Source of the DNA: Litorimonas cladophorae
GTDB lineage: Bacteria > Pseudomonadota > Alphaproteobacteria > Caulobacterales > Maricaulaceae
Direction of reading: 5' to 3'
NCBI RefSeq assembly: GCF_014652455.1
Contig: NZ_BMYV01000002.1
Coordinates: forward strand, 558,001 to 622,000
DNA length: 64,000 nucleotides
The translations under genes were made by a program, and so were the position numbers. The notes under the pieces were generated by a model, which made no database searches, was not told the origin of the DNA, and saw only the letters and a list, made by a program, of their open reading frames with translations. Positions 6,278 through 32,170 of the stretch are shown piece by piece. Position 1 is the stretch's first letter; each line of letters starts with the position of its first letter.

Positions 6278-8536
6278 TTGTCCGTTACCAAAGCAAATTC
6301 CGGATACATACCGGCAATCGACGGCTTGCGCGCTGTGGCCGTTAGTTTGGTCCTACTCTTTCATGTCAAAACACCTTTTTTTCTAGGCGGCTATGTAGGT
6401 GTTGATGTATTTTTTGTGATTTCAGGGTTCCTGATCACGCGTGGCATTATTTCGGCCTCTGAGAAGGGCAAGTTCAGCTTTGCTAATTTTTACTCTCGTC
6501 GGGCCGTGAGGTTGTTTCCTGCGCTCTTTGTTACCATTCTTGCGACGCTGATCGCAGGTTTTTTTGTTCTCAGCCCCTCTGCGCTGGAAGAAATGTCAGG
6601 ATCTGCTTTGGCAGCAGCTCTCTTCTTCGCAAATATTTTCTTCGCGTTGGATGCGGGCTATTTTGACACCGCTTCGCATCTAAAACCACTGCTGCATATG
6701 TGGTCATTATCGGTTGAGGAACAATTTTACCTCGTCTGGCCTGTGACGATCATTGTGTTGATGCGCGTTTTTAAGGGCAAAGCCAAATACCTGATCCCGA
6801 TCATTGGGGTACTGTCTCTAGCCGCGGCACTTTATTATGCGCCTAAAAATGCGAATTTCGTATTTTTCATGACGCCTTTCCGCATTTTTCAATTTTGTAT
6901 CGGCGCAGGTTTGGCTTTTTGGGCATTCCCTGTAGCCGGCAATAAACGCGGCTATCTTGGACTGGCGGCGATGGTCGCGCTTGTCTTCGCAACGGTTTGG
7001 ATCGGCGATACGGTAACAGGCGTCCTGCCGACCGCCTTGTTGCCCGCAGCCTTAGCGGGGATATTTATCGCAACAGCTAGAACACCCATCTTAGAAACTA
7101 TTTTTGCTTCGCCCCCGGCTGTTTGGTTAGGGCGTCGCTCATATTCAGTTTACTTGGTGCATTGGCCGATCATTGTTTATTATGGCATCAAAACTGGGTT
7201 TAATTTTTCGCCCGTCGATCAGATTGGCTTGATCGTTGTGTCCCTAGTTCTGGGTGCTGTCCTTTATAACTGTGTTGAAGAACCTTTGCGCATTCATGGC
7301 AAGCAATCCCTCACCGAAAGTAAGCTAAAGTTAGCGGGAATAATTCTGCCAATGGCGGCCGCTCTCTCTCTTTCTGTTCTGTTTATTCAAAAAGATGGGT
7401 TCCCAAGTCGAGTTCCTGAAGCTGTGAAATCTATCGTAAATAATGCGCCAAATGACTGGGCGACGAGGCTTGCCGAAATACGGACAGGCAGCTGTAATAT
7501 TGTTGTGGCAGATCATGGTTTTGATGATTGGAATCTGGAAATTTGCGGTGAGGTCGATCCAACGCGGCCCAATGTATTTGTAATTGGCGATAGCTATACC
7601 GGCGGAACTTATATGGCGTTCAAACGCGCTTATCCCGATGTGAATTTCCTTCAAATGTCCATTCCAGGGTGCCGTTTGAAGCTTCCAGAGAATATGCCCG
7701 ACGAGGGTAAATATGCCGATTGCAAGCGGTTATATGCTTTGTTCTTCAACGAGTTGCTTCCCAGTCGCCAATATGACGCCGTGATTTTCACGTCTAACTG
7801 GTTACCCAATCTGCACACAGATATTGGTGATGTTCTGAAGGCAAGTGCGGATACACAGACGCCGTCAGTTTTAATTGGCCAGCGACTTGCCTATTCCGAG
7901 AAACTACCGACAATATTAGAAAGCTCGATTTCCCTAAGTGAGGCGCAGAAATCGGCAGATCGAAAAATTGATCAAGCCAATATCAAATGGAATGAGTTCT
8001 ATAAAACGCGGTATGGTCCGCAAGCGGATGTATTCGTTGATTTCCTCGAGCTCGCCTGCACGCCCGAATGTTCAATTGCAACGAATGACGGTCGTATGAT
8101 TATTTTGGATGATAGACATTTGACTGAAGTTGGAGCTGAAGTCATGGCCGCTAAAATCCGCCGGAAATATGACCCGCAACTACGGCCTATTTTCAAAGCG
8201 AAGGCAATTGCGTCCGAAGGCCAGAATGGGCGCAAATCCCAGCTTGTTATGCAATGTTCTGCGGTTGGATCAGCAAAGCCGTTCGTTCGTGAGTATAGCT
8301 TGTCTCAAGAAAGTGGGATGTGGAAACTGGACCGTTCAAACCCGACCTCTGGAGCCTTTGAAAGATGGGACCTGAACATCTCCCCCGAGGGTGTAGTCTC
8401 AATCGCAGGCGAGTATCAGGAGGGGGCTGGTGGCATGAAAGAAATAAGCTTCTCTGGCATCTCATTCGATGACATTTTAATCGCAAATGGAAAACGCGGC
8501 CCTCGAGATTGCCGTCTAGTGGCAGATTTAAAATAG
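6278..8536 (+). CDS. Membrane O-acyltransferase (acyltransferase-3 family) with SGNH domain and extra C-terminal domain
   Basis: A 752-residue OafA/YrhL-type protein. Residues about 10-340 form the acyltransferase-3 membrane domain with IDGLRAVAV, His29 and FFVISGFLIT, plus about ten hydrophobic segments. Residues about 420-630 form a periplasmic SGNH hydrolase-like domain with GDSYTGG (about 437-443) and a late DDRHLTE. Such proteins pass acyl groups across the membrane onto surface glycans. After residue 655 comes a further domain of about 98 residues, with Cys660 and Cys745, that is not usual for the family and matches the lipoprotein at 8656-9141. The start is a TTG; no better ATG precedes the conserved N-terminus. 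Confidence 0.9.
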   Translation: MSVTKANSGYIPAIDGLRAVAVSLVLLFHVKTPFFLGGYVGVDVFFVISGFLITRGIISASEKGKFSFANFYSRRAVRLFPALFVTILATLIAGFFVLSPSALEEMSGSALAAALFFANIFFALDAGYFDTASHLKPLLHMWSLSVEEQFYLVWPVTIIVLMRVFKGKAKYLIPIIGVLSLAAALYYAPKNANFVFFMTPFRIFQFCIGAGLAFWAFPVAGNKRGYLGLAAMVALVFATVWIGDTVTGVLPTALLPAALAGIFIATARTPILETIFASPPAVWLGRRSYSVYLVHWPIIVYYGIKTGFNFSPVDQIGLIVVSLVLGAVLYNCVEEPLRIHGKQSLTESKLKLAGIILPMAAALSLSVLFIQKDGFPSRVPEAVKSIVNNAPNDWATRLAEIRTGSCNIVVADHGFDDWNLEICGEVDPTRPNVFVIGDSYTGGTYMAFKRAYPDVNFLQMSIPGCRLKLPENMPDEGKYADCKRLYALFFNELLPSRQYDAVIFTSNWLPNLHTDIGDVLKASADTQTPSVLIGQRLAYSEKLPTILESSISLSEAQKSADRKIDQANIKWNEFYKTRYGPQADVFVDFLELACTPECSIATNDGRMIILDDRHLTEVGAEVMAAKIRRKYDPQLRPIFKAKAIASEGQNGRKSQLVMQCSAVGSAKPFVREYSLSQESGMWKLDRSNPTSGAFERWDLNISPEGVVSIAGEYQEGAGGMKEISFSGISFDDILIANGKRGPRDCRLVADLK

Positions 8537-10259: not shown

Positions 10260-11228
10260 TTAGGCTTCTCTGATTGTATCCAGATGTGTCTCAAACCATG
10301 AAATCGCATCCGCCAACCCGTCTTCGAGTTCGCGGGTAGGTGACCACCCTAAAGCTGCCATACGTGAGTTGGACATAAGTTTGCGCGGCGTTCCGTCCGG
10401 CTTGGTCGTGTCTTTTGTCAATGTCCCTTTAAAGCCGACGAGCTTCATAATCAGTCGCGCCAAATCTTCGATAGGTATATCGTCGCCTTGGCTGACATTA
10501 ACATGTTCATGACCAGAGTAATTCTTCATTAAGAAAACAAGACCATCAGCGCAGTCATCAGCGTGCATAAATTCACGACGCGCCGTGCCTGTTCCCCAAA
10601 TTTCCATCGAATCCGCATTTTCTTCGCGGGCATTATAGGCCTTGCGAATAAGGGCTGGGATAACATGGGAGTTTTCCAGGTGGTAATTGTCGCCTGGACC
10701 ATACAGGTTTGTGGGCATTGCGGAGATGAAGTCACTGCCATGTTGCTGACGGTAGGCTTGACAAAGTTTTATCCCTGCGATTTTGGCGATCGCATACCAC
10801 TCATTTGTTGGCTCGAGAGCGCCAGAGAGGAGAGAGCTTTCCTCAATTGGCTGATCTGCAAACTTAGGATAAATGCAAGATGAGCCTAGGAATAAGAGCT
10901 TCTCCGTTCCAATGGCGTGAGCCTTGTGAATGATGTTCGAAGCGATCGCTAGGTTGTCATAGAGGAAATCAGCCGGGTAGACAGAATTCGCGTGAATTCC
11001 GCCAACCTTTGCTGCCGCCAAAAAAATGGCGTCGGGCTTATTTTCATCCATCCAGGCGTCAACGGCCGCTTTGTCTTTTAAGTCCAACTCCGACCGCGTA
11101 GCCGTTAGAACCTCAGCAACATTTTCACTCTCTAGTCGGCGAACAATCGCTGAACCGACCATGCCTCGATGGCCAGCAACCCAGACCCGTTTTCCGGTCA
11201 GGTCATAGGGTTTGGACGTATTAGTCAT
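10260..11228 (-). CDS. fcl: GDP-L-fucose synthase
   Basis: A 322-residue short-chain dehydrogenase/reductase that epimerises and reduces GDP-4-keto-6-deoxymannose to GDP-L-fucose. It shows the NADP-binding turn [12 protein letters not shown], the SSCIYPK loop with catalytic Ser and Cys, and [10 protein letters not shown] carrying the Tyr-x3-Lys pair. An in-frame GTG at 11252 would add eight residues. The ATG at 11228 is preferred, and it overlaps the end of gmd by eight bases, so translation is probably coupled. It supplies fucose for the GT10-like domain encoded at 15183-17627. Also called wcaG. Confidence 0.95.
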
Positions 11229-12288
11229 GTCGGTTTTTCCGGTCGACTTCACGTGCCACTAGCTTCAGATCGCTTTCCATCATATCGGCAACGAGACCTG
11301 CAAAAGGTGTTGTGAATGTCCAGCCCAACTTTTCTTTCGCTTTACTTGGATCAGAAAGAAGAAGTTCTACCTCTGTTGGACGGAAATAACGTGGATCTAC
11401 CTTAACCAACGTGCGACCAGTTTTGCTACATTTACCGATTTCATCAACGCCTTCGCCGCTCCAATCGATTTTGATATCGACCATAGAGAAAGCCAGTTCC
11501 ACAAATTCACGAACGGAGTGCATTTCACCCGTACCCAAAACATAATCGTCAGATTCGTCTTGCTGCAGGATGCGCCACATACCTTCTACATAATCACGTG
11601 CATGGCCCCAGTCGCGCATTGCGTCGAGGTTGCCCAGATAGAGTGTATCTTGGAGATTGTTGTGAATGGCGGCAACAGCCCGAGTGATTTTACGCGTCAC
11701 GAATGTTTCACCGCGGAGAGGGCTTTCATGGTTGAACAGGATGCCGTTGGACGCATGCATTCCATAAGCTTCGCGGTAGTTTACGGTAACCCAATAAGCG
11801 TAAATTTTAGCGGCCGCATATGGGCTGCGTGGATAAAAAGGCGTTGTTTCGCTTTGTGGCGTTTCGACGACTTTACCATACAGCTCAGATGTAGAGGCTT
11901 GGTAGAAACGTGTCTTGTCCGCCAAGTCGAGAATACGAATAGCTTCGAGCAAACGCAGTGTGCCAATCGCGTCAGATTGCGCCGTATATTCTGGCGTATC
12001 AAAGCTAACTTGGACATGTGATTGCGCGCCTAGGTTATAGATTTCGTCAGGTTGCGTTTCTTTAACAATACGGATCATGTTCGTGGAGTCGGTCAGATCT
12101 CCGTAGTGCAAGAATAGCTTGGCATCTGGATCATGCGGATCGACATAAAGGTGATCAATGCGCGACGTGTTAAACGAAGACGACCGGCGCTTAACGCCGT
12201 GTACAGTGTAACCTTTGCCAAGCAGAAGCTCTGTCAAATAGGCACCGTCTTGCCCGGTAACACCTGTGATTAAAGCGGTCTTTGTCAT
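11221..12288 (-). CDS. gmd: GDP-mannose 4,6-dehydratase
   Basis: A 355-residue dehydratase that makes GDP-4-keto-6-deoxy-D-mannose, the first committed step to GDP-L-fucose. It has the NADP-binding [10 protein letters not shown] motif, the HYGDLTD segment and [12 protein letters not shown] with the Tyr-x3-Lys catalytic pair. [16 protein letters not shown] is a hallmark of Gmd. It is the first gene of a two-gene operon with fcl and begins 277 bases from the FkbM gene upstream. That gap shows no gene. Confidence 0.96.
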
Positions 12289-13501: not shown

Positions 13502-14362
13502 ATGACTTCCGTTAATCAAGATGAGGCAGTAGAACGCGAGACTTTGCCCGTCTATAGTTTTGATGCTTCCAAAGACGGCTTTAAATACGCTTTGGACGAC
13601 CTGAAGACGGCCTTATCGCGTCCTCGACTGCTCCTCAATCTGGTTCACACCTCTTTTTTCTCAAGGTATCAAGGCACTTTTCTAGGCGGGTTTTGGATCA
13701 CAGCCACAACCTTTATGATGGTCTCCGGACTAGCACTTCTCTACTCACGCATCCTTGGTGATAATCTCAGCGATTATTTTCCATATGTCGCCATCGGGAT
13801 CATCGTTTGGGGCCTCATATCGACATTGATCAACGAAGGCGCATCGGTTTTCCTGGCCGCGTCTGTCGCCTTCAATCAGGCGCCGATCCCCAAGACAATT
13901 TTCGCTCTTCGTCTGGTTGGTACAGCTTTACTCAGCATGCTCTACAAATTGATCATCGTGGTTGGCGTCCTCATTTACTTTAAGGTTTTTCCGTCTTGGC
14001 CCGCCCTCTTGATGGCGATCGGCGGGATGTTTCTTATACTTTGGACCGGGTTCTGGTTTACCCTATTTATCGGCACTATTGGCACGAAATTCAGGGATAT
14101 TGGGCAGCTTACCAGTGCATCGTTGACCTTTGCATTTTTCGTCACGCCTGTTTTTTGGCGTTCTGATCGACTGGGCGACCTTAGCTTTCTCATCACCTAC
14201 AACCCACTCTACCACTACATCAACACGGTCCGCGGTTCACTTCTCGGGTATTCCGATGTGGTCGAAAGTTTTCTTTGGGCGGGCGGAACATCGATTGTCA
14301 TCGCTGTCTTGGGTATGGTCACTTTCTGTCTGTTTGCAAAACGCATTGTGTATTGGAGCTAA
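13502..14362 (+). CDS. ABC-2 type polysaccharide export permease
   Basis: A 286-residue inner-membrane permease of the Wzm/KpsM type. It has a cytoplasmic N-terminal tail of about 45 residues, including LVHTSFFSRYQGTFLG just before the first membrane span, and six hydrophobic segments. The conserved NPLYHYINTVRG motif lies near the last loop. It forms the channel that moves a lipid-linked glycan to the periplasm. The ATPase gene begins one base after its stop. Whether the cargo is O-antigen or capsule cannot be decided from this gene alone. Confidence 0.93.
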   Translation: MTSVNQDEAVERETLPVYSFDASKDGFKYALDDLKTALSRPRLLLNLVHTSFFSRYQGTFLGGFWITATTFMMVSGLALLYSRILGDNLSDYFPYVAIGIIVWGLISTLINEGASVFLAASVAFNQAPIPKTIFALRLVGTALLSMLYKLIIVVGVLIYFKVFPSWPALLMAIGGMFLILWTGFWFTLFIGTIGTKFRDIGQLTSASLTFAFFVTPVFWRSDRLGDLSFLITYNPLYHYINTVRGSLLGYSDVVESFLWAGGTSIVIAVLGMVTFCLFAKRIVYWS

Positions 14363-14363
14363 G

Positions 14364-15113
14364 ATGGGCCCCTCAATCAAAATGGAAAATGTCGGCGTTC
14401 ACTTCGATCTCCCACAGGCTCGATCCCAGGGCATAATGAACTCTTTCAAAACTGTGGCTTTGGGTGGTGTGATCACGCAACAGAAAAGGCGCGTTGGCAT
14501 CAGTGCACTAGATAATGTCTCACTCAATCTCAAAACAGGTGATCGGGTAGCTTTAATTGGGCACAATGGAGCCGGCAAAACGACGCTTCTACGGATATTG
14601 GCAGGGATCATCCCGCCGACCTCAGGCAAAATTAGGGTTGAGGGGCGGATATCGTCTCTGATCTCCATCCAACTGGGGCTGAACAATCATGCCACTGGCC
14701 GCGACAATATCCGATTGCGGGCGCGTTATATGGGTTTTAACGAAGAAGAGATTGATCAGCAATTCGCGGATATCATTGAATTTTCCAACCTTAATGACTT
14801 CATCGATCTTCCGATGCGCTCTTATTCGAGTGGGATGCGACTTCGCCTCGCTTTTGCGATTGCCACAGCTTTTCGGCCTGACATTTTGATATTGGATGAA
14901 TGGTTGTCCGCTGGTGACGAAAACTTCCAGAAGAAAGCCAGTCAGCGCTTGGGCTCTCTCATCGACCGGACGGGCATCTTTATTTTCGCCAGCCATAACT
15001 CACAAGTGCAGGCAAGAACCTGCAACAAAGGTATAGTGTTGCGCCGTGGGAAGATTTTATTCCGCGGGGACATTGATGAGGCCATTAAGTTCAACCGTAC
15101 AACTGAATACTAA
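14364..15113 (+). CDS. ABC transporter ATP-binding protein for polysaccharide export
   Basis: A 249-residue ATPase partner of the preceding permease. Walker A is GHNGAGKTT, the signature is YSSGMRLRLAFA and Walker B is ILILDEWLSAGD, the form typical of Wzt/KpsT/TagH ATPases. An open frame extends upstream to 14130, but that part lies inside the permease gene in another frame. The ATG at 14364 directly follows the permease stop. The protein ends soon after the nucleotide-binding domain, so it has no C-terminal carbohydrate-binding module as in chain-end-recognising Wzt. It is therefore nearer the KpsT/TagH-like short form. Confidence 0.93.
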   Translation: MGPSIKMENVGVHFDLPQARSQGIMNSFKTVALGGVITQQKRRVGISALDNVSLNLKTGDRVALIGHNGAGKTTLLRILAGIIPPTSGKIRVEGRISSLISIQLGLNNHATGRDNIRLRARYMGFNEEEIDQQFADIIEFSNLNDFIDLPMRSYSSGMRLRLAFAIATAFRPDILILDEWLSAGDENFQKKASQRLGSLIDRTGIFIFASHNSQVQARTCNKGIVLRRGKILFRGDIDEAIKFNRTTEY

Positions 15114-15182: not shown

Positions 15183-17627
15183 TCAGATTGATGAGATTTT
15201 CTTAGCAGCCTTTATAAAGTCGACCATTAAACGTTTGCGCTCTTCGACCAGAACCTGCGGCTGACTAAAGAGATCTGCCATACGTTTTTGAGACTTCAAA
15301 TATTGCTTGGCAAAGGCTTCGTCTGGCACGAAACGATCAATGTATTTGGCGGCGTCCTCACCGGTCATACCGAAGATGTTGATGAACCCACCATCGGGGA
15401 AAAGTTCATGAATGCGATGATTTGGACTCGCGAAATACACTGGAATTGCATTGACGGCAAAAGCGTCAAAAATCTTCTCTGTGATATAGTGTTTTTGATG
15501 GGTGTTTTCCAAACCCGACGCGATTAGCGTTTTCCCATCCAGGGCATTTAACTTATCTAAATGCCAATCTGGCAAGGCTTGACGTTTCTTCGCTGTTTTG
15601 GGCCAACCACCGCCGACGCGTACAATATTGCCTTTTTTACAGTTCTTCGCGACGGACGTACGCAGGAGACAAAGTCCATAAACATCGTCTTCCTTCACTT
15701 CCACGCCATAGCGTTCATTGTTACGGATTTCGGCATAAAACGCTGACCGTATTGTCGTGGAAGACCAATGCTTCATCAGATCTTCGACAGACATTTTAGC
15801 GTTCCGTCTAAAGTAATTCCCATATCTGACGAAGAATTTGTCACTCGTGGTTATGAAATAGGGAACCTTGTTAAAGGCATAAATGTCAGAGTTCATGTGG
15901 TTGAGGAAGTGATAGGGGATATTGCCCGCCTTGCTCTCAATCGTCCGGGCTTGCTCGGTATAGCCCTTGCTCCAGATTACGTCCCAAAGGGGCTCTTCCG
16001 ACAAGACCACATGTTTAGCATTGTAATTATCTAATTTATGGTTGTTTAACGCCTTGGTGTCTGAAGAAAAATCGATATTGAAGCCTGTCATAATCAGGTC
16101 GGCTTCTTTGGCCGTATCGACAATTTCGATCATGTCTTTGGAGTGCGTCAAGTAAGGTTGGTAAGACAATGGTGTCCGATTAGAGTGTTTTCCGTACAAC
16201 ATAACTTTCAAAGGCTTCGTAACCTCGAACGCCTCTTGGTTCGGCGAAATCTTCTTCTCATCAAATTCCATGAAAGCTTTTGCGCGTTTATAGCGATCCA
16301 CAGAAGCGGGGTTTACATTTTTCTCAATCGCTTCCGACAGGAGCTTTTGTATAGAGGCATTTTGGGCGTAGCTCGCAGCGAAACCCTCTCGATCAATCAT
16401 CAACCCGCTAATGCACGCGTTCAAGAACATCGAAAGATCGAACTTGGACGGGTTTTCGCGACGAGAAATCGTCTTCGCCATTTTCACTAAGGTGTCATTA
16501 TGGCATGTGCCTAAAGTTAAATCATCCTGTCCGAAATCACCGTTGGCGATCTGGAGGTAGAGCATCTGAATATCGTAAATGAATGTGTCCATTCCATAAA
16601 GAATCCAGAGTTGCCCTAACATTTGGCGCTTATGCGCCAAGAGCTCTGGATCATTAGCGATAGCTTCTAAACGATCAGGTAGAGCCTTGATCGCTTCAGG
16701 TGACTCATCGCAATAAACGACCGCTTCATCCCAGATCTTTTGGCGTCCCGGCGTTAGATATGTATCGGCAAGAATGACGGGAATTGATCCGGCTGCGATC
16801 GACTCCCAAAGACGAATAGAGTTGGGGCCGCTACCTGAAGGACAGAGTGCAAATGTCGTTTCTCTGAGGGTTTGCTTGAACTGCTCCGACGCATCCACAT
16901 TGATTAGTTTATCTTGAGTGTCACTGTTTTTACGAATTTGGTAATCATAGACGATTTTATTAAAATGCCAGCTGTCCCTACCGACGACCAAACCGCGTTT
17001 GTCATCACCCAGCAAATCCAAAATCCAATTGCGCGCTTCTGTCAGATACCATTGATTTGCACGCGCTCCGATGAACGAAAACAGATGCGCCCGTTTTTGA
17101 TCAAGTGGCCAATTTTCTTTCTTGGGGAATTGGACAGAATATAGGGGGAAAGGATGTAAGTCGATCTTGCGATCTTGACTAATTGAAAACTCATTCTTTA
17201 CGGCGTGAGTCCAAAAGATATCTGTTACACGGTGGTCAAAAAACATATCAATGAACTTCATCATATGAATATGCTGGCAGACGGTCACAACACGTGTGTT
17301 TGGTGCAATTTTTGCCGTCAGTTCCTTAAGCTTTGCCAGTAAAGGCATCGCATCGCTGCGCTTAGTGTTATATTTATCTAGGAAAGTGGCCCAAGGGAAT
17401 GCGAGGTAAACAACGCCTTTCACATCAAATAGATGTTCTTTGACCATATGATAGGCATTTTTCTCGGTGATAGCGGGAAATTGCCATTCGTCATCATGGG
17501 CAATGACTCCGCTATTTACCGATCCATGTGATTTGCTTTTATTACCCATTCCTCGGCCCTGAAACTTCCTCTCGAATTCAACTTTCGAAGTGGTCAATAC
17601 GATGCCCATCCCAGGTGATAACTCCAC
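15183..17627 (-). CDS. Two-domain glycosyltransferase: exostosin (GT47)-like N-terminus fused to a GT10 fucosyltransferase-like C-terminus
   Basis: An 814-residue protein. Residues about 40-380 resemble exostosin-family enzymes, with CPSGSGPNSIRLWESIAAGS followed by IPVILAD. After a linker, residues about 500-800 resemble GT10 alpha-fucosyltransferases, with HYITEKIFDAFAVNAIPVYF and the following SPNH. The gmd-fcl pair in the locus makes GDP-fucose, the donor expected for GT10. It could add two successive sugars, one of them fucose. The GTG at 17627 is the longest start; Mets at 17609 and 17549 are alternatives ahead of the conserved region. No signal peptide is visible, so it is probably cytoplasmic or membrane-associated. 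Domain calls rest on motif reading. Confidence 0.82.
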   Translation of the reverse strand: MELSPGMGIVLTTSKVEFERKFQGRGMGNKSKSHGSVNSGVIAHDDEWQFPAITEKNAYHMVKEHLFDVKGVVYLAFPWATFLDKYNTKRSDAMPLLAKLKELTAKIAPNTRVVTVCQHIHMMKFIDMFFDHRVTDIFWTHAVKNEFSISQDRKIDLHPFPLYSVQFPKKENWPLDQKRAHLFSFIGARANQWYLTEARNWILDLLGDDKRGLVVGRDSWHFNKIVYDYQIRKNSDTQDKLINVDASEQFKQTLRETTFALCPSGSGPNSIRLWESIAAGSIPVILADTYLTPGRQKIWDEAVVYCDESPEAIKALPDRLEAIANDPELLAHKRQMLGQLWILYGMDTFIYDIQMLYLQIANGDFGQDDLTLGTCHNDTLVKMAKTISRRENPSKFDLSMFLNACISGLMIDREGFAASYAQNASIQKLLSEAIEKNVNPASVDRYKRAKAFMEFDEKKISPNQEAFEVTKPLKVMLYGKHSNRTPLSYQPYLTHSKDMIEIVDTAKEADLIMTGFNIDFSSDTKALNNHKLDNYNAKHVVLSEEPLWDVIWSKGYTEQARTIESKAGNIPYHFLNHMNSDIYAFNKVPYFITTSDKFFVRYGNYFRRNAKMSVEDLMKHWSSTTIRSAFYAEIRNNERYGVEVKEDDVYGLCLLRTSVAKNCKKGNIVRVGGGWPKTAKKRQALPDWHLDKLNALDGKTLIASGLENTHQKHYITEKIFDAFAVNAIPVYFASPNHRIHELFPDGGFINIFGMTGEDAAKYIDRFVPDEAFAKQYLKSQKRMADLFSQPQVLVEERKRLMVDFIKAAKKISSI

Positions 17628-17789: not shown

Positions 17790-19910
17790 TCAGGGGTTAC
17801 TCTTATTCTTTCTGCTTCGCATAATGCTCAAAACTCGGGCTACACGCTTATCATTCGCCTCAATATCCGTCACCCGGTGCTTTGGATGCAAAAGTGTTAT
17901 AGGGTCTACGCCTGGACCTTGGGGCGGAGTTAAATTTTCGATAAATTCTAAAACCTTCAAAACTTGGGCTTCGTTCAAAGAAAAACCTAATTCTTTAGCA
18001 ATGCTTGAAATAACGCTTTCGGGCTTGTCTGATATATGTTGAAAATTCACTTCCAAATCAGATCGCTGATCCCAAATTTTGTAAAGCTGAGCCTGATGTT
18101 TCAACGCGTTCAAAATTCCAGCTTCGGAGTCTTCCACCCAACCCATGCGAACGAGGGAGCTAACACGCCTTTCTAAAGATCTGTGGTTGGTAATCGTTTT
18201 CCAAATTGGACCCGTATAATCATCGACATTATGAACTTTGATCAGGTGGTATTTGACATCTGTCTTTCCTTCAAATGTCTTGTACCAGCCGCTAGCATAT
18301 GGTGTGTTCGTAATTTCAAACACGCCACGAATAACGTTGAAAACCCAAGTTCCGCCCGATCGGGGGACGCTTCCTACCAGCACAACCTTCGGAGTTGTAA
18401 CAGTGAGTTGCTTAGGTTTTGACTTCGGCGGGGCCACATCAATCTTAGGCGTGTCGGTGGCGCCAACTTGCTCGATGTATCTCTTTTTATGCCACGCTAA
18501 ACTCGCTTCGCGCTCAGCTAAATCAGATTTCAAGGCCGCAATCTTCTGCCTCGCCTGTACTAATTTTTGTTTCTCGGCTTCCGTTTCAGCTGAGACTTTC
18601 TCATAACGCTCTTTCTCTTCCAAAAGGGCGTCGAGTTGTTTCGACTTTCCTTCGGAGATGGCCGTTAGTGTTGACACTTGATGATCGAAGGCATCGATTA
18701 TGGCGGTATAAGTCCCCTTCATCGAGGCCTTAAATTCCGAAAGAGATGTACGTTCCGCACTTTGCGCGGTTGCTAGGTCTCCCTCTAGCTGTTCACAGCG
18801 CCGTTTAACTGAATTTAGTTTGTCACTAAGCTCCGCAGCGGTTGAGCATTTACTCTTATGTTCAAGCTTTAATGCCGCATAATCTGCTTTTAGGTTTTCA
18901 AGTTCTTGGGCCAATTGATTATGACCGCGCTCCGCGACATTCAATTTGTCACTAAGTTCTGCTGCAGTTGAACACTTGGTCTCATGTTCTAGTTTTAATG
19001 CGTCATGATCCGCTTTCAGGCATTTAAGCTCATGCGCTAAAGTTTTTCGCTGATCTTCATTCTTCGCGTTTTGGGCTTCAAATTGACTCAGCTTTTCTTT
19101 GAGTTCGATCTGTTCTGCGTCACGCTGTTGCGTAATCGCCAATACCAGCTCTTTTTCACGCGCAAGGCTTTTGGTTTCTAAATCGAGTTTCTTGCGTAAA
19201 TCCGCATTCGTTTTCTTCTCCTTTGAAAAATTCTTCTCAAGAGTTTTCTTTTGAGACTCGAGGGTTTTCATCTGCTTTTCGACGCGGAGTCTTTCTAAAA
19301 GAGCTATGTCGATACATCCAGATATGGTCACGAAATCTTCGTTTTCATCGATTTCCAGATCAGCATCTACGCCTTTGTCCTTGAAGGCTTTCAGAATCTC
19401 TTTCGCCAGGGTCGCGCCTTTGAAGAGCTGGGAATTCGAGCTCACAACGTTGAAGCGTCTAACGTTTTTGAAATAGGGACCACTCAGCATCTCTGAAATA
19501 ACGGAGCCTTCACCCCCGCAAATATCAACGATTAAATCGAAGTCTGCGCGCGACGGGATATAAGCCTTGACGACATCAGAAAAGCCTTGCGTTTGAACCT
19601 GAATTTCTTTTTGAAGTTCCAATCCTGGATAAATATCCAATAGTCCTGTTGGTTCATATAGGCCGCTCATATCCTCAAAATTGTAAATTTTGAGCTTTTC
19701 TGGCCTCGCCGAGTCCGTAACAGCCGCATTTACAACCGTAATATGGGGCGCATTCCGCGTTTCGAACTTTAAGATATTACAAACATCGATATTCGCATCG
19801 ATCAGGACGATGTTTTTATTAGTTGCGGCTATATATTCGTTGAGCTGTGAGCATCTGCCAGCCCCTAAGTAAAGAAGGTGCCCCATTTTCGTTTTTGGTG
19901 TCTTGGCCAA
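17790..19910 (-). CDS. Three-part protein: Rossmann/methyltransferase-like N-terminus, long coiled coil, C-terminal sulfotransferase-like domain
   Basis: A 706-residue protein. Residues 1-205 look like a Rossmann-type domain with LYLGAGRCSQL and VLIDANIDV, but I see no complete SAM site. Residues about 205-490 are a Glu/Lys/Leu-rich coiled coil including a 42-residue unit repeated in tandem. Residues 507-690 contain GSVPRSGGTW (516-522), the 5'-phosphosulfate loop of PAPS sulfotransferases, and a VHNVDDYTGP segment. It could sulfate or cap the exported glycan, with the coil as spacer. The methyltransferase-plus-coil layout recalls the chain-length ruler WbdD of E. coli O9a, but that is analogy only. 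It is followed by the exostosin gene and preceded by another coiled-coil gene. Confidence 0.8.
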   Translation of the reverse strand: MAKTPKTKMGHLLYLGAGRCSQLNEYIAATNKNIVLIDANIDVCNILKFETRNAPHITVVNAAVTDSARPEKLKIYNFEDMSGLYEPTGLLDIYPGLELQKEIQVQTQGFSDVVKAYIPSRADFDLIVDICGGEGSVISEMLSGPYFKNVRRFNVVSSNSQLFKGATLAKEILKAFKDKGVDADLEIDENEDFVTISGCIDIALLERLRVEKQMKTLESQKKTLEKNFSKEKKTNADLRKKLDLETKSLAREKELVLAITQQRDAEQIELKEKLSQFEAQNAKNEDQRKTLAHELKCLKADHDALKLEHETKCSTAAELSDKLNVAERGHNQLAQELENLKADYAALKLEHKSKCSTAAELSDKLNSVKRRCEQLEGDLATAQSAERTSLSEFKASMKGTYTAIIDAFDHQVSTLTAISEGKSKQLDALLEEKERYEKVSAETEAEKQKLVQARQKIAALKSDLAEREASLAWHKKRYIEQVGATDTPKIDVAPPKSKPKQLTVTTPKVVLVGSVPRSGGTWVFNVIRGVFEITNTPYASGWYKTFEGKTDVKYHLIKVHNVDDYTGPIWKTITNHRSLERRVSSLVRMGWVEDSEAGILNALKHQAQLYKIWDQRSDLEVNFQHISDKPESVISSIAKELGFSLNEAQVLKVLEFIENLTPPQGPGVDPITLLHPKHRVTDIEANDKRVARVLSIMRSRKNKSNP
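18780..19031 (-). repeat. Tandem 126-bp (42-codon) duplication inside the coiled-coil gene
   Basis: Two adjacent units, 18906-19031 and 18780-18905, encode near-identical 42-residue segments. Each has an LKAD segment, ALKLEH and then KCSTAAELSDKLN. Forty-two residues equal six heptads, so the duplication keeps the coiled-coil register. Confidence 0.85.
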
Positions 19911-19955: not shown

Positions 19956-21614
19956 CTAATTTTCATTCCGAGACTCCAAGAAGTGTAATAAAGGATTCAC
20001 ACCGTCAATCAGAACATCCGGGTTGTCTTTCGTATATTTCCGCGTGTTAAACTTCGGGCCAGGAGACCGACCTTCAAATGCGCCATAATTTACAAAGTGT
20101 TCAATAGGGCTCATGGATATATTAGCCAGATCAGGGTAGGTTTTTAAATACCAATCCACATCAAATAATCCCGACTGATAGACGCGATTGACGTCACTTT
20201 GAGACGCTCTGCGACCCGCCAAACCGATTGCCCGCGATAATATTCGTACGGGGCGCGTTACTTTCCAAGAAAAACTGCTCTGTAGGCTGTCGATACGTTT
20301 ATGTGTTCGCGCGAGATCGTTTTCCAATTCGGCGACTAAACGTTCGGTCTTACCCTCTTTCCAACGAGCAACTTTTTTCAGCTCCTCAAGTTCCGTAGAG
20401 ACCTTTAAATAATTATGATAAGTTTCAGTTGCGTCGGATTGAATACTCGCCATTTGCTCGCTCATCAGGTCATCTTTCATATTCGATCGCCTTGCGTCGT
20501 CTATGGCCTCTGCATTGGCTTCAGCGAGTTCTTTGGCATGTAACAGGGTGGCTTCATGGGCTGCCTGCAGGTCTGATAAATCGGACTTAAGACGAGCGTT
20601 TTCATTGAGAAGCTTCTTCCCATCGGGATTTTTCTGACTCTCAATTAATTCTGCTTGAACCGCTTCAAGTTGCTCTAAAAGCAGACTTTTATTTTTTTCA
20701 AAGCGCTGATTATTGTCGGCTAATTCTGCTCGCACCGCATCAAGCTGCTCGACATAGAGCGCTTTGTTCTGCTCAAGGGCGTCTTGGCTTCCAACGAGAT
20801 CGGCCTGCATGGCTTCCATCTGTTCAAGCAATAACTTATTTTCACTCTCTAGACTCTGGTTTGCGTCAGATAGTTTGCCGAACCTAGTACTGATGTCCTC
20901 AAGTTTTTGAGAAGCTTTAACACCTTTGGCTTCAAGTTGATTGATCTGCGCCTTTGCGATTTCATAGTTTTCTGTTGAAGCGTTCAGTTCTTCAAACACG
21001 GATTTCAAATCAAATACATCTGGAGTGGAATAGGGCGAGATCGGTTCGGAACGCGCCTCGAGTTCCTGTTGGAGTTTCAAGACGTCTTGATTTTGTCTTA
21101 TGATTTGATTGGCGAAAATGCCGTGCAAATCGCTCACGGGTGGCCTTCTAGGGAGATCACCGACCCTGTCTGTGCCGTTAAATCTGTACTTGTTGACGCA
21201 AATTTCTATAAATTCTTCAGGAAACTGCAAAGCTGTGTCCGCATTTACCAAAAATACGGACTTGCGGTGTTTTCGAACAAAATTAAGAACGCTTTTAGTT
21301 GTTGTGATCCACGCAAATGCGGCTTCATCAGGCTTTAAACCGGCGGCTAAATAATGCGCCAATCCGAGTTTTGCTGGCAAATAAAACGCCAAAACATGCG
21401 GCTTTTTCTCTGCTTCGGCAAAGTGAGTCTCGAAGAGTGCCCAAGGTTCCTCAGACTTTGAGAACGCGATGACGCCAGACGTATCCTTTTCACTTTCGCT
21501 GGCAGGGTTGGTCGGCAAGCCTTCGGCCGAAACTACATTCCCAGAAATCGCCTCTAGAATCACGGAAATCGGGGGTTGATAGTTTTTCAACACCCCACCT
21601 GCTAACAAAATCAT
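19956..21614 (-). CDS. Coiled-coil protein with C-terminal W-Y-L / N-P-D type repeats, polysaccharide-locus protein
   Basis: A 552-residue protein of unknown function. Residues about 1-170 form a globular domain with no motif I recognise. About 215-470 is a long coiled coil containing three 25-residue repeats (EQ-L/M-x-A-x-x-A-E/D-L). The end carries VDWYLKTYPDL with PIEHFVNYGAFEGRSPGP, then a second weaker copy (NPDV with NPLLHFL). This short motif occurs at the ends of glycosyltransferases and related proteins in polysaccharide loci. I prefer the ATG at 21614; a start at 21689 would add 25 residues including an unlikely Cys-rich stretch. It lies 45 bases upstream of the sulfotransferase protein and probably shares its transcript. 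Confidence 0.75.
   Translation of the reverse strand: MILLAGGVLKNYQPPISVILEAISGNVVSAEGLPTNPASESEKDTSGVIAFSKSEEPWALFETHFAEAEKKPHVLAFYLPAKLGLAHYLAAGLKPDEAAFAWITTTKSVLNFVRKHRKSVFLVNADTALQFPEEFIEICVNKYRFNGTDRVGDLPRRPPVSDLHGIFANQIIRQNQDVLKLQQELEARSEPISPYSTPDVFDLKSVFEELNASTENYEIAKAQINQLEAKGVKASQKLEDISTRFGKLSDANQSLESENKLLLEQMEAMQADLVGSQDALEQNKALYVEQLDAVRAELADNNQRFEKNKSLLLEQLEAVQAELIESQKNPDGKKLLNENARLKSDLSDLQAAHEATLLHAKELAEANAEAIDDARRSNMKDDLMSEQMASIQSDATETYHNYLKVSTELEELKKVARWKEGKTERLVAELENDLARTHKRIDSLQSSFSWKVTRPVRILSRAIGLAGRRASQSDVNRVYQSGLFDVDWYLKTYPDLANISMSPIEHFVNYGAFEGRSPGPKFNTRKYTKDNPDVLIDGVNPLLHFLESRNEN
20601..20825 (-). repeat. Three 75-bp (25-codon) repeats in the coiled-coil gene
   Basis: Units begin at 20825, 20750 and 20675 on the minus strand. 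Each starts with an EQ-L/M-E/D-A segment followed by A-E/D-L. The third unit degenerates in its second half. A 25-residue period fits a 7+7+11 coiled-coil pattern rather than pure heptads. Confidence 0.75.
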
Positions 21615-21759
21615 GTAAGTCTCGTTCTCGTATCCGGCGCACTGAAAAGAGCAATCACCACACAATACAATGCGTTGCGCTAAATACAAGAATGTAGCAT
21701 AGTTTTAGCCCATGAATGTCGCTTTAGTTTAGATATTCAACAGTATGATCTGAGCTCTC

Positions 21760-23462: not shown

Positions 23463-24422
23463 ATGACCCAAACCCCAAATTTGAACCTGCCTTACCTCAT
23501 GCCTGCGCAGGCCTTGAAGTACATTACCTATAACGAAGCTATGTTGCGTTTGGACAGTTTGGCCCAGCTCAGCGTGAAATCTAGGGCCTCAACACCACCG
23601 ACGAGTCCTATCGTAGGCGATGCATATTTGGTCGGGCCCACCGCGACAGGAGATTGGACTGGCTTCGAGGACTTTATTGCCCGAAGTGACGCTTCGGGCA
23701 ATTGGAAGATGCTGGAACCTAACGCTGGCTGGACCTGCCTGATCTGTGATGATCGACGCCTATATGGCTTCTTCGACACTGGCTGGGCAGAGATTCAAAT
23801 CCCTGAAACCATGCAGACGCAGTTCGGTGTGAATGCCCAGGCCGATAATCTCAATCGGTTCGTCGTTAAGTCTGAAAACGCGCTGTTTGACAATGAAGGT
23901 CACAGTCATCGGCTTAAAATTAACAAAGCCGCTCTTTCGGATACCGCGAGCCTTCAGTTCCAGACGGGCTACCAATCTTATGGCGAGATGGGCCTAATCG
24001 GGAACAATGCCTTATCGATCAAAGTTAGTGAAAATGCGACCGATTGGACTGAGGCCATCAGGTGTGAAACCCATACTGGCCATACACAAATAAAAAATAT
24101 GTATAGTGGTGGAGTTTATCTTCTGAACGAGACAGCCAAAACGATCACACCTCCCAAATCCGGCGGATTCATGATGATCATGATCGACAATGAAGATTAT
24201 CCTCAGCTCTCCCACGCGGCCATAGTCGCTTATGATATTGGGGTCTCACCAAATGTGATTATCCTCGGCAGTGGCGACAAGTTTCGCGTCGCAAATGACG
24301 AACTCCTCACTGGGATAACGGGGCCCGATAAATTCACAACGCTCAGTGCGCTCAATGGCAGCCTCATGCTCGAGAACAGATACGGGACCCATCAGACATA
24401 TCGATATACTTTTTTAGGGTGA
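23463..24422 (+). CDS. DUF2793 domain protein (phage/gene-transfer-agent tail-like)
   Basis: A 319-residue protein whose first 110 residues match the DUF2793 pattern: TPNLNLPYL, QALKYITYNEAMLRLD, then VGDAYLVGPTATGDWTG and a WAEIQIP end. In alphaproteobacteria this domain occurs in prophage or gene-transfer-agent tail-fibre-like proteins and also alone. Residues 110-319 are beta-rich and could form a fibre or binding head. No other phage gene is nearby; neighbours are a glycosyltransferase and an O-acyltransferase. It may have been recruited as a surface or glycan-binding protein. Its stop overlaps the convergent acyltransferase stop by nine bases. Confidence 0.82.
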   Translation: MTQTPNLNLPYLMPAQALKYITYNEAMLRLDSLAQLSVKSRASTPPTSPIVGDAYLVGPTATGDWTGFEDFIARSDASGNWKMLEPNAGWTCLICDDRRLYGFFDTGWAEIQIPETMQTQFGVNAQADNLNRFVVKSENALFDNEGHSHRLKINKAALSDTASLQFQTGYQSYGEMGLIGNNALSIKVSENATDWTEAIRCETHTGHTQIKNMYSGGVYLLNETAKTITPPKSGGFMMIMIDNEDYPQLSHAAIVAYDIGVSPNVIILGSGDKFRVANDELLTGITGPDKFTTLSALNGSLMLENRYGTHQTYRYTFLG

Positions 24423-26354
24423 AACTGACTGGTTGAATAGGTCGGGGTAAGAGTTTCGGATTTCTCGACCAACCCATGAGGACGCCTTAAGCGTGAAATG
24501 GCTATCGTCACGGTATATCAAGTCGCCATTTGGAGTCTCAATATCACAGGTCTCTGGGCAAAGTAGATCCATCAGATCTACATAGTCATCAGCTCCGCCT
24601 TGCGAGATCTTCATGGCGTCAGCACGCTTAATGAAATCTTGGTTGACGAGGACGTTTGCTCGCGTCCTTGCGGCATTTGACTCGCCAGCTTTTTGTAGGA
24701 TGTCAGGCACACGTTCTCTGAAACGAGGGCGCAATCCAACCGTGACGACTTTGACCCCTAGAGACTCCAAGTATTTTTTCGTTTCCACGATATCTTTGTC
24801 GGAGACTTTCGTCCAATTCGCGACGAGAACAACATAATCAAATCTATTTTTCGTAATAACGTTTTCATACGCATTTTTGTAATGTGCCTGGCACTGATTT
24901 TTGTTCGCTGCCACTTTCGAGGGACTTTCAATTGGGCAACCTGGAATGATATAATGGCCGAAGTAGGGTGCTTTAAATCCCCCTTTTAAAGCGACATACA
25001 TATCACCTGCGAAACTATCGCCAAATACCAAAACTTTTGGCATTTTTCCCACTGGCGCTGTTGCGCAGCGTTCCACGCCATAAAGTTCTGGCGCGTCCTG
25101 CGGACGCATGAAGCAACGCCCTTCCTGATCAGCAACTCCATCAGTTCCAAGTGACGCGGTCAGAGGCCCCTGAGAGATTGCCTGTGAATTAGCTGCACCC
25201 TCTTTGGCAAACCCATTAAAATATGTCACGTTCATCGCCAAAGTCCCACTCATGAAAGCCATTGCAAGGAGGAAAAACTTCGTTCGAAGAACACGCGCGG
25301 GGCTTGCCGAACGGGACAAGCGGAACGGTTTCTCTACGCATTGATGTAACAATTCACCTAAAATGACGGATGCCACGAATAGGCCGGCTTGCTCAAATGG
25401 GCTGAGAACGTAATCTGTCGCCATATTCCAATAAACGATGATCGGCCAATGCGCGAGATAGATCGCGTAAGACCGCTCCCCTAAATACTTCAAAATTGGA
25501 GATGCAAATATACGTTCTTGGACGTTTGATTTCGCGGTAAACAGAAATGCGCCAGTCAGCAATGCAGGCAATAGCATCACGGTTACGACATGCTGGAAGC
25601 CCGATAGATCATCTGGAAGGGCCGCCGCGAGGCCGAATAGAGATAAGACGCTTAGAATGCCGATAATTGAGAGGCGATCTCTAAATTTCCACGCTGGCAA
25701 AAAGCTGATCAGACCGCCAATGGCAAACTGGAAGACCCGGAAGGGGGCAAGGAAAAAGACCATATCTGGATTTTCACGATGAAAATATACAGCTGCAACA
25801 AACGACAGCAAGCCAAGCGCCGCCATTGAGATCACAAGCAATTTTCGCCCCGATGCCAAGCAAGCAAAAAGGAAAATTGGCCAAACCAGATAGAATTGCT
25901 CCTCTACGGCAAGGGACCAAGTGTGGAGCAAAGGTTTTGTATCAGACGCCTGAGCAAAATATCCAGCTTCCGTCCAGAAGAAGATATTAGAGAGGGAAAT
26001 TGAAGAGAGGAAGCTCGAGAAACCTAGTCGGTTATAATCCTGGGCAGATAGAAAGAAGTACCCGCCAATCAAAGTCAACAACACGACCGTTAGGACCGCA
26101 GGCATAAGCCTTGCTGCCCGTCGGAAATAGAAATCCAGAAAGCTGAATGATCCGCGCTCAACACTTTGTGTGATGTTTCGTGTGATCAAAAAGCCTGAAA
26201 TGACAAAGAATGCGTCAACACCAATAAAGCCTGAGTGCGCGAACTGAAGGTCCAAATGGAACAACAGGACCAATAAAACCGCAACTGCTCTTAAGCCATC
26301 GATAGATGAAATATACGAGTGATGACCTGTTTTGGCGGGTGAGGTATTAGACAT
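24414..26354 (-). CDS. Membrane O-acyltransferase with SGNH domain (acyltransferase-3 family)
   Basis: A 646-residue OafA-type protein. SSIDGLRAVAVLLVLLFH places the catalytic His at about residue 33. FFVISGFLITRNI and about ten hydrophobic helices follow, then a periplasmic SGNH domain with GDSFAGDM and YRDDSHFT. It probably acetylates or otherwise acylates the locus glycan. It resembles the 6278-8536 protein along both domains but lacks that protein's extra C-terminal domain. It lies downstream of ugd on the same strand with a 53-base gap. Confidence 0.92.
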   Translation of the reverse strand: MSNTSPAKTGHHSYISSIDGLRAVAVLLVLLFHLDLQFAHSGFIGVDAFFVISGFLITRNITQSVERGSFSFLDFYFRRAARLMPAVLTVVLLTLIGGYFFLSAQDYNRLGFSSFLSSISLSNIFFWTEAGYFAQASDTKPLLHTWSLAVEEQFYLVWPIFLFACLASGRKLLVISMAALGLLSFVAAVYFHRENPDMVFFLAPFRVFQFAIGGLISFLPAWKFRDRLSIIGILSVLSLFGLAAALPDDLSGFQHVVTVMLLPALLTGAFLFTAKSNVQERIFASPILKYLGERSYAIYLAHWPIIVYWNMATDYVLSPFEQAGLFVASVILGELLHQCVEKPFRLSRSASPARVLRTKFFLLAMAFMSGTLAMNVTYFNGFAKEGAANSQAISQGPLTASLGTDGVADQEGRCFMRPQDAPELYGVERCATAPVGKMPKVLVFGDSFAGDMYVALKGGFKAPYFGHYIIPGCPIESPSKVAANKNQCQAHYKNAYENVITKNRFDYVVLVANWTKVSDKDIVETKKYLESLGVKVVTVGLRPRFRERVPDILQKAGESNAARTRANVLVNQDFIKRADAMKISQGGADDYVDLMDLLCPETCDIETPNGDLIYRDDSHFTLKASSWVGREIRNSYPDLFNQSVSP

Positions 26355-29949: not shown

Positions 29950-32160
29950 TTAATTCGAATATGTGCCGTAGGTCACGCGGGTTGTGTGACGGCCGTTCTC
30001 CCAATCGGTGAGTATGGTCATGTTTTTTGGTGAAATCGTTATTTCAGATCGATTGTCAACAAAGCCATAGGTGTCGAGCAGCTCGCAATATTTACCACGC
30101 AATTTGGTGGAAAGCGGTTTGCCGTTCAAGCTCATGACGTTGTCTGGATGGGACAAGAAGACGGTCTCCTTGGTGTTTTTGATTAAGCCGTCATTTAAAA
30201 GTTCGGTGATTACAACATCACGAAACTCTTCGTGTCTCGCACGGGAAAGGTGGTCCGCTTGAGCGTGAGATTTTGCCTTTTCGAGAGCTTTGTTCTTGGC
30301 CTTTTCTGCATGTTTATACGCAAGGGATGCGTGCTTTTTTGAGACCTTCGTTGACTGCTTTTGGGCCTCGATGACCGATTTATGAGCTTCTCTTTGTTGG
30401 ATGCGTGCTCGTTCTTGGTGAGCTTTCGCCTCAGCCTGATGTGTTTTCGCACGTTTTTGATTTTCTTTTGCTCTCGCGATGCTTTCAACTTGGCGCTGTT
30501 TATTTTGGATGAGCCTTTGTTGGGCCTCTACTTGTCTTTCGATTTCAGCGGAGCTGCGCAAATATTCGCGTTCTACTTCTGCCTGCGCTTTGGCCAACGC
30601 CTTAGTCTGTGCGTCATGAATTTGCGGACTGTTGAGGTGAGAAGACTGACGCTGGGCTGCTGTGAGACCCTTTTGCGCGGCCTTTAATCCCTCGAGTCTT
30701 GCCTCTGCATAATCTTCATATCTGTCTTCAATCGCCTCTCGTCGGTCTTCAAATAAATCTTTGATGTCATCGACGAAGTCTTCATATACCTCCGCGACAT
30801 CTTCCATTTCGTCCGCATCTAGCGGGTTGGATTTCGCGTAGGCTTCTAAACGATCCTCATATTGGTCCATGGCAATCGCGAAGCTTTTATATATGGCTTT
30901 GTCGGTTTCGATGAAACTTTGAAAGTCTCCCTCATTTTTGAGTGTCGATAAATCGAGTGGGGGCAATACTGGTGGCACTGGCGGTGTAGGTTGCACTGGC
31001 GGAACTGGTGGAGTCTGCGGAACCGTAATCACGCTGTCTGGCAGGGTGGCACTCATCTCTGCCGGTAGTGGCGCCGATGGTGCGGGCGGTACAGGATGGG
31101 CGTTTGCGCGCGTGGTGCTTCCTAAATAGACCGAGCCGATGAGCAGGGCGCTAACCAAGGACATCACAACGTGTTCGGGACGACCCCGCGAATGTGCGCC
31201 AGTTTGGGTCCCGCCCGTCAATCTTGTCAAACGATCCATCAAAGGGGCATTTTCGCCAGTTCCTGTTGCGGCTATACCAAGGCGTGGCTGGGCATTCAGC
31301 CGAAGTGAGGCTAATCCACGAACTAAGGACAGTGGATCGCGACCTTGACGCACAGCCAGATCATCACAAGCTTGTTCTCGGTCACGATCAGCCCATTTAG
31401 CGATAATGTGAATGGCAGGATGGAAAAATAGAACGGTTTTTACGGCGGTTTGAATGAGGTTCAGTGCGTAATCATAGCGGCGAATATGGGCGAGTTCATG
31501 AAGGAGGACTGCTTCAACTTGATCACTGGGTAATCCCGACAGGAAGCCAATAGGCACGAGTACAATTGGCTTTAACATACCTAGCGTCATGGGCCCTGAG
31601 ATGTTGGAAGACACCAATAGTTTCACATTTTCCGAAATGCCACTTTGTCGAAGGAGTAGCGTGAAGCGGTCCTGCCATTGCGGTGAGGGTGCAGACACGC
31701 CCAAGATACGGAGCTGCTGTACTTGGCCAAAGGCAAAAGCGTAGCGTAAACTCATGATGGCGAAGCCCAAAGCCCACAGACACGCTAGGATCGGGGTTAC
31801 GCGGGAAAAGTTGACATCTGCTCGCCCTATAAGGGCCGCAGGGTCAAATGGCGTAATCAAGCTGGTAAACCGACCTTGGGTTTCGCTTCCGGCAACTGCG
31901 GATAGGGTGGCACCCCCATCTGCAGTCATGACGCCGAAATTCAAGGGAGTTTGGCCGAGATAGGCCGCAAAGGTCCAAAGAAACGCAATCAAACATCCAA
32001 TTAATGCTGTAAGCTGACCAGCGTGCCGCAATGCGGGGGAATGCCCCCGCAGAGCAAAGCGCCAGATAACAACTGCAAGAAAGGCGATACCTACTTGCCA
32101 GATTGAATGCAGCACAGCCCATCCCAGGCTGTCCAAAATATGCGTGAATTCGGGCCCCAT
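29950..32160 (-). CDS. BlaR1-like M56-family membrane metalloprotease with coiled-coil C-terminus
   Basis: A 736-residue protein. The N-terminal half has several hydrophobic helices and the zinc motif HELAH (about 221-225), followed by REQACDDLAV, the M56/BlaR1 signature. A further membrane span and a Pro/Val-rich linker follow. About 350 residues of charged Ala/Lys/Gln/Glu helix come next, and then a short C-terminal domain. Classical BlaR1 instead ends in a penicillin-binding sensor, which I do not see. The start at 32160 has a strong AAGGAG site; a longer frame to 32235 runs into blaI. It is expected to cleave the adjacent BlaI-like repressor on sensing an envelope signal. Confidence 0.88.
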   Translation of the reverse strand: MGPEFTHILDSLGWAVLHSIWQVGIAFLAVVIWRFALRGHSPALRHAGQLTALIGCLIAFLWTFAAYLGQTPLNFGVMTADGGATLSAVAGSETQGRFTSLITPFDPAALIGRADVNFSRVTPILACLWALGFAIMSLRYAFAFGQVQQLRILGVSAPSPQWQDRFTLLLRQSGISENVKLLVSSNISGPMTLGMLKPIVLVPIGFLSGLPSDQVEAVLLHELAHIRRYDYALNLIQTAVKTVLFFHPAIHIIAKWADRDREQACDDLAVRQGRDPLSLVRGLASLRLNAQPRLGIAATGTGENAPLMDRLTRLTGGTQTGAHSRGRPEHVVMSLVSALLIGSVYLGSTTRANAHPVPPAPSAPLPAEMSATLPDSVITVPQTPPVPPVQPTPPVPPVLPPLDLSTLKNEGDFQSFIETDKAIYKSFAIAMDQYEDRLEAYAKSNPLDADEMEDVAEVYEDFVDDIKDLFEDRREAIEDRYEDYAEARLEGLKAAQKGLTAAQRQSSHLNSPQIHDAQTKALAKAQAEVEREYLRSSAEIERQVEAQQRLIQNKQRQVESIARAKENQKRAKTHQAEAKAHQERARIQQREAHKSVIEAQKQSTKVSKKHASLAYKHAEKAKNKALEKAKSHAQADHLSRARHEEFRDVVITELLNDGLIKNTKETVFLSHPDNVMSLNGKPLSTKLRGKYCELLDTYGFVDNRSEITISPKNMTILTDWENGRHTTRVTYGTYSN

Positions 32161-32170
32161 TTTCGTCTCC

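Follow-up and report, generated by a model that had tools for sequence, protein, structure and literature searches.

One 706-aa protein in the window (the whole stretch of DNA analysed, 64,000 nucleotides) is predicted to combine a methyltransferase-like head, a long coiled coil and, at the coil's far end, a PAPS-dependent sulfotransferase. We consider this protein somewhat more probably than otherwise (about 0.55) a coiled-coil arm in surface-polysaccharide assembly, with the end sulfotransferase as likely cap and coil length as control. That an enzyme is held at the coil end appears well supported by comparison of sequences: the neighbour and fusion pairs, the cassette replacement and the heptad-block coil lengths of several relatives all speak for the earlier idea of a coil carrying an end-enzyme. 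Chain capping by the sulfotransferase and chain measuring by the coil we infer by analogy. Variable-length coils with a probable glycan-modifying end enzyme occur in polysaccharide loci that often hold ABC exporters.

Head, coil and tail of the 706-aa protein

The ORF is free of internal stops (translation of the minus strand), and GGAG lies 7 nt upstream of its start codon (Table 1). The protein matches only itself in its own 3.02-Mb genome (E ≤ 0.001), and Pfam, NCBIfam and PDB sequence searches gave no useful match for the whole chain or for single domains; weak matches to SMC and other coiled-coil proteins were set aside as composition effects. Because a combined whole-chain alignment misaligned the tail rows, we predicted head and tail separately (AlphaFold, own alignments of relatives). 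The original prediction had placed a methyltransferase-like head, a long coil and a sulfotransferase-like tail in this order, and the predicted folds together with the coil periodicity confirmed that architecture, with a class-I methyltransferase fold modelled for the head and a sulfotransferase fold for the tail. As in WbdD-type proteins, an extended coiled coil is joined to a predicted glycan-modifying enzyme.

Table 1. Features of the 706-aa protein and of its locus, in window positions
Feature	Position	Strand	Basis or remark
Head + coil + sulfotransferase protein	17790..19910	-	706 aa, TTG start
Head, residues 1-200 (fold ~10-200), FkbM-like class-I methyltransferase fold (predicted)	19311..19910	-	Model, motif residues
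Coiled coil, residues 206-480, period 3.52	18471..19295	-	Hydrophobic periodicity
42-residue (six-heptad) repeat, two copies, residues 298-381	18768..19019	-	Period analysis; positions read from sequence
Sulfotransferase tail (predicted), residues 505-706	17793..18398	-	Profiles, model, Foldseek
P-loop PRSGGTW, residues 516-522	18345..18365	-	Tail alignment; role as in SULT enzymes
K558-x-H560, catalytic-His motif	18231..18239	-	Tail alignment; role as in SULT
R577...S585, 3'-phosphate site	18156..18182	-	Tail alignment; role as in SULT
Partner coiled-coil protein: degenerate head, coil, SWKVTRPVR, WYL/NPDV tail	19956..21689	-	Just upstream
Glycosyltransferase with GT47 (exostosin) + GT10 domains	15183..17627	-	Next gene downstream
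Exporter ATPase (Wzt/KpsT-like; ABC_tran), without C-terminal glycan-binding module	14130..15113	+	
ABC-2 exporter membrane protein (Wzm/KpsM-like; ABC2_membrane)	13502..14362	+	
GDP-mannose-4,6-dehydratase-type gene + epimerase	10260-12288		

The tail model (207 aa, 11-row alignment) reached a pLDDT of 89.5 and a pTM of 0.86, and the best 50 of its 1422 Foldseek matches to the PDB (E ≤ 10) all belong to the sulfotransferase superfamily (top E 6.7e-7). Pfam gave no match for the tail alone; a six-row tail profile retrieves PDB sulfotransferases at 9.7e-11. Twelve positions, among them R517, S518, G519, T521, W522, K558, H560, R577 and S585, are invariant in a 13-row alignment in which three rows are near-copies. 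By correspondence with SULT enzymes, these nine residues would supply the loop for the 5'-phosphate, the catalytic His and the 3'-phosphate site; one P-loop Ser/Thr is replaced by Gly in the 706-aa protein. The claim of a sulfotransferase-like tail with a PAPS site held, as both the predicted fold and the cofactor and catalytic residues are present, and the sign named beforehand as speaking against it, absence of a PAPS site from the predicted structure, was not seen. The genome carries APS kinase, so a supply of PAPS is plausible.

Seven loci besides our own were found with the tail, and all four tested match Sulfotransfer_1 and Sulfotransfer_3 above the curated cut-off. The tail has the fold, P-loop, K-x-H and R...S in common with Sulfotransfer_1 and Sulfotransfer_3 enzymes, including those of viral contigs, and differs from them in lying below Pfam detection and in being borne on a coil. 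Sulfotransferases related to the tail are encoded on 15 uncultivated viral contigs (L042-L056).

For the head, the model (242 aa, 10-row alignment; pLDDT 87.2, pTM 0.79) has a predicted class-I SAM methyltransferase fold, and the best 50 of 1478 Foldseek matches to the PDB (E ≤ 10) are overwhelmingly SAM methyltransferases. The GxG and acidic residue of the SAM motif are retained in the 706-aa protein. This motif is kept in 17 of 26 heads; nine are without a clean motif (in three of these the segment fell outside the alignment), and therefore the head may be no enzyme. The head profile also retrieves true FkbM enzymes, since all ten control proteins, which were taken from other matches of the profile, match Methyltransf_21 above the cut-off. 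Unlike these enzymes, the head of the 706-aa protein has no Pfam match at E 10 and no NCBIfam match at E 0.1, so that membership of Methyltransf_21 or TIGR01444 was not found with these two collections. Its profile-profile match to two FkbM proteins of the window is weak (probability 1.6%), and the head of L145 weakly matches Methyltransf_21 (0.0065, below cut-off). Homology of the head to WbdD was rejected, as no chain named WbdD is among the 16 PDB sequences found by the head profile at E ≤ 1.

None of 500 shuffles of the coil was as strongly periodic at 3.52, and its 275 residues include 4 glycines and no proline. The stretch after the head varies from about 40 to about 600 residues in coiled members without a fused enzyme. 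Among 13 relatives analysed, the dominant repeat is 42 residues in five (L033-L036, L041), 35 in L012 and 49 in L038; the coil units of L014 are not multiples of seven, and the repeats of another five are near shuffle level. Between the close strains Leisingera M527 and NJS204, coil length changes by 35 aa (5 heptads). Length changes in heptad blocks would fit a ruler, yet they are expected of any growing coiled coil.

The exporter locus and its neighbours

The gene had been placed in an ABC-exporter polysaccharide locus whose ATPase has no glycan-binding module, and this setting was recovered: we identified ABC2_membrane and ABC_tran domains in the two exporter proteins, and the ATPase ends 68 aa past the ABC domain, too soon for a Wzt-type C-terminal domain to fit. 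The true ATPase start is probably inside the ORF listed in Table 1. In WbdD-type systems the C-terminal glycan-binding domain of Wzt reads the cap, although this arrangement is not universal. Genes for KpsC/KpsS Kdo transferases (PF05159), a mark of group-2 (Kps) capsules, were not identified in the genome. A gene in L033-L036 and G468 that was considered as KpsC is Glycos_transf_1 instead (L033, L036 and G468 tested). Weak Wzz and SLBB matches in L033, below cut-off, may hint at a capsule.

In 14 of the 25 relatives scanned, the gene immediately upstream of the head-coil gene resembles that of the partner coiled-coil protein; in three more, such a gene is one gene away. Partner length and head-protein coil length are weakly correlated (Spearman 0.52, n=15, p 0.046; stop-to-stop ORFs), and thus the two proteins might pair. 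The head of the partner was also considered as a degenerate sulfotransferase, which hhalign did not support (0.2% and 6%). Genes like that of the GT47/GT10 protein occur near head-coil genes in some relatives.

Of 25 head loci, 12 have both exporter genes within the stretch that was fetched, as do 8 of the 13 loci with roughly 15-20 kb per side; the other five well-flanked loci have the membrane protein only (two) or neither gene (three). Control loci have both genes in 2 of 10 cases and an ATPase-type match alone in two more, with short flanks in two. The enrichment relative to controls (p 0.09 for both genes, 0.012 for the membrane protein alone) is suggestive, and is taken as supportive only because the exporter profiles were partly trained on the same loci.

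On either side of the locus, acyltransferase-3 / SGNH fusion proteins are encoded (6278-8536 and 24414-26354), and the glycan may therefore be O-acylated. A DUF2793 gene is found inside the locus (23463-24422), and DUF2793 genes recur close to head-coil genes on three Leisingera plasmids. At 29950-32235 lies a gene for a BlaR1-like M56 peptidase protein of 761 aa, whose 686-aa neighbour matches a TonB plug weakly.

Relatives and their coil ends

A search for the same architecture in related genomes yielded head-coil relatives, often near exporters, but the exact fusion of head, coil and sulfotransferase was seen only here. Within the order, the head is found in 9 of 299 genomes and the tail in 2 of 299, own genome included in both counts; the other copy of the tail is a 238-aa open frame. 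The 17 genomes of the same genus gave no head match at E ≤ 0.001, and one has a weak coil-only match to a different protein. Over the phylum, the head profile matches in 48 of 398 genomes, own included. Proteins of 19 of these loci were read and four more were searched with Pfam; at least nine head-coil proteins were found, a lower bound because the remaining matches are unread and some lie in long open frames, and 10 other loci of the 19 have no such coil. A scan of named genomes gave nine loci, six of them labelled gammaproteobacteria (including two Lamellibrachia symbionts, Thiohalocapsa and Thiocystis), and one an Escarpia symbiont labelled only 'bacterium'; the remaining two, from alphaproteobacteria, duplicate loci found before.

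Head-coil genes were also identified on six plasmids of Salipiger, Leisingera and Gemmobacter, where all are annotated 'hypothetical protein'. Replicon type rep_cluster_252 is present on five of the six (L141-L145), and in two of them rhamnose genes lie beside the replication gene. The comparisons below use 31 head loci besides our own (25 plus the six plasmid loci) from Alpha- and Gammaproteobacteria and tubeworm symbionts; three further plasmid matches, in Ensifer and Azospirillum, stand outside this set. The coil is present in 30 loci. The exception, G250 (L019:4076-4771), has a coil-less head with a TPR-adaptor gene 207 bp on that is cut by the contig end, and appears to be a broken or reduced copy.

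The coil ends with a motif like EAQIELIKDLLL (motif I) in 14 of the 31 loci and with one like DLKDLQxRY (motif II) in 15; two have neither (G250, and L033, in which an enzyme-like domain is fused). These counts are descriptive and no independent test, because the motifs were derived from the same data; motif I is degenerate in G059, and motif II was found by pattern in 14 loci and by eye only in Gemmobacter. The two motifs differ in the genes that follow. Near 12 of the 14 motif-I loci lies a gene for a TPR adaptor, in most cases linked with a methyltransferase or sulfotransferase; this count includes the three loci on which the adaptor profile was trained, and in G730 the adaptor lies 1.6 kb on. 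The two loci without it are L038 and L041, and the contig of L041 ends soon after. The profile also matches near G250. It found no adaptor in the 10 motif-II loci scanned whole or in 10 control loci; for the five motif-II plasmid loci it was run on selected proteins only.

The enzyme behind the adaptor is varied. It matches FkbM above the cut-off in five of the 12 loci (G059, G213, L036, G263, G1016), is another class-I methyltransferase in G468, and has a Methyltransf_24 match below cut-off in L035. In Leisingera caerulea it is a sulfotransferase of the tail type (own profile 1.4e-33; Pfam below cut-off), and in G988 and G990 sulfotransferase-like motifs were seen by eye, with Pfam negative. 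No enzyme is visible behind the adaptor in G852 and G730. The neighbour of motif II, by comparison, is a single sulfotransferase-like family in 14 of 15 loci (exception G226). Six of these 14 neighbours match Pfam Sulfotransfer_3 above the cut-off and seven below it (1.6e-5 to 0.0041); that of Gemmobacter has no Pfam match and is recognised by the family's own profile (8e-39). No crossed pair of motif and enzyme was seen among the 31 loci, and for the first 18 clear pairs the association gave a Fisher p of 4e-5, uncorrected for kinship. The coil-end motif thus appears to predict the type of the next gene in nearly all relatives.

In L. caerulea, the motif-I head-coil gene is followed by a gene for TPR plus sulfotransferase, and this sulfotransferase is closer to the tail than any other that was compared (29.5% over 200 aa, 7e-35); the second-closest is on a viral contig (30.5% over 177 aa, 9e-22). 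Since the closest relative of the tail is the next gene in L. caerulea, the 706-aa protein looks like a fusion of coil and end-enzyme. A comparable case is L033, from a tubeworm symbiont: its coil is fused to an enzyme-like domain that Pfam does not recognise and that shares 36% identity (3e-53) with the end of the gene beside the coil gene in the sister locus L035. DNA identity among L033, L034 and L035 is 91-93% across the exporter genes and 82-92% across partner and head; the matches end inside the coil repeats, with no match of ≥250 bp beyond. Compared with L. sp. M527, the L. caerulea DNA is homologous (78%) up to a point about 90 bp short of the coil gene's end, and again (85%) from just past the enzyme gene, which suggests that on Leisingera plasmids the coil end and the enzyme gene have been replaced as a unit. 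On a tree of 30 heads, end type has to change 10 times, compared with 11.3 for shuffled labels (as low in 50 of 200 shuffles), with weak support on 12 of the 27 inner branches; it is therefore not clearly inherited with the head. From the fusions, the replacement and the head tree together, the coil end travels with the enzyme more than with the head. Binding of the matching enzyme by the coil end would explain this most simply.

Proposed capping or tethering, and known systems

In the reading that we prefer, one end of an arm of the assembly complex would consist of the FkbM-like head together with its partner coil protein, and the coil would hold the PAPS-dependent sulfotransferase at the opposite end. 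There the sulfotransferase would act on the nascent chain while this is still cytoplasmic, and the ABC transporter next door would export the sulfated product. The analogy of known coiled-coil terminators makes it most likely that the sulfate would block the non-reducing end, with coil length having a part in deciding when the chain end is blocked. In related loci a separate methyltransferase or sulfotransferase, the product of the next gene, would probably be recruited via the coil-end motif; in our locus the enzyme is fused to the coil. Docking, activity, capping and length control we infer. The broader proposal of a scattered ruler family, with whole-heptad coil changes and with end-enzymes that are exchanged along with a matching coil-end motif or fused to the coil, in which sulfate or methyl capping sets the length of ABC-exported chains, we put forward tentatively, as the less probable side of an uneven bet.

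Several observations stand against a cap and a ruler. The same enzyme would serve to place sulfate on every repeat, two motif-I loci have no visible enzyme, and the ATPase is without a cap-reading module. This last point would also suit a coil that merely tethers the sulfotransferase to the polymerase for sulfation of repeat units, neither capping nor measuring. A tether accounts equally well for the fusion, the coil-end motifs and the replacement, and marine capsules with a sulfated repeat sugar are known (PMC11641403). We regard such a tether as possible if rather doubtful: the identified end-enzymes are methyltransferases and sulfotransferases, groups able to block a chain end, and long coils of variable length would seem costly for this purpose. 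The arm could also be oriented the other way, with the N-terminal head as terminator and the C-terminal end as an anchor to exporter, polymerase or membrane, while the sulfotransferase works separately. The predicted methyltransferase fold of the head favours this arrangement, as does WbdD, whose methyltransferase and kinase precede a C-terminal coil (PMC3482155, in part), and motif I, judged by eye, could be an amphipathic membrane helix. It is unlikely given that the SAM motif has been lost from several heads and that it is the C-terminal end that changes together with the enzyme gene. A purely structural coil, on a sulfotransferase whose substrate is a lipid or protein, could be read from the viral contig that ranks after Leisingera among the tail relatives compared, and is very improbable for a family whose genes lie among glycosyltransferase and nucleotide-sugar genes, often near exporters.

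The proposed cap and ruler have a strong precedent. In Klebsiella O antigens a coiled-coil ruler bears the terminating enzyme at its distal end (PMC11231755); in WbdD the enzymes are N-terminal to the coil (PMC3482155). WbdD (E. coli O9a / K. pneumoniae O3) resembles the 706-aa protein in that a single chain carries both an extended coil and a methyltransferase-fold domain, in its ABC-exporter glycan locus and in its group-transfer chemistry. The order is reversed relative to WbdD, as the exchangeable enzyme of the head-coil family is C-terminal. In further contrast to WbdD, no kinase domain is seen in the 706-aa protein, its C-terminal enzyme is a predicted sulfotransferase, and its locus has a second coil protein and an ATPase without a glycan-binding domain. 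The Klebsiella O4, O7 and O12 terminators are likewise at the end of a coiled-coil ruler, with modules fused or separate by serotype, but they are Kdo transferases or methyltransferase-kinases, and the portion of PMC11231755 used here names no sulfotransferase or FkbM-type terminator. The differences from this precedent are sulfation as the predicted reaction, the C-terminal position, the interchangeable end and the ATPase without a cap reader. Neither a description of the head-coil family nor sulfate as a chain terminator was found in our searches of the open-licence literature.

If the ruler reading is true, it would be of interest for capsules, where a length-control factor is still being sought. 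Natural variants are available in Leisingera: L. caerulea has a different end cassette at the same locus from that of M527 and NJS204, and the latter two share a cassette on coils 35 residues apart.
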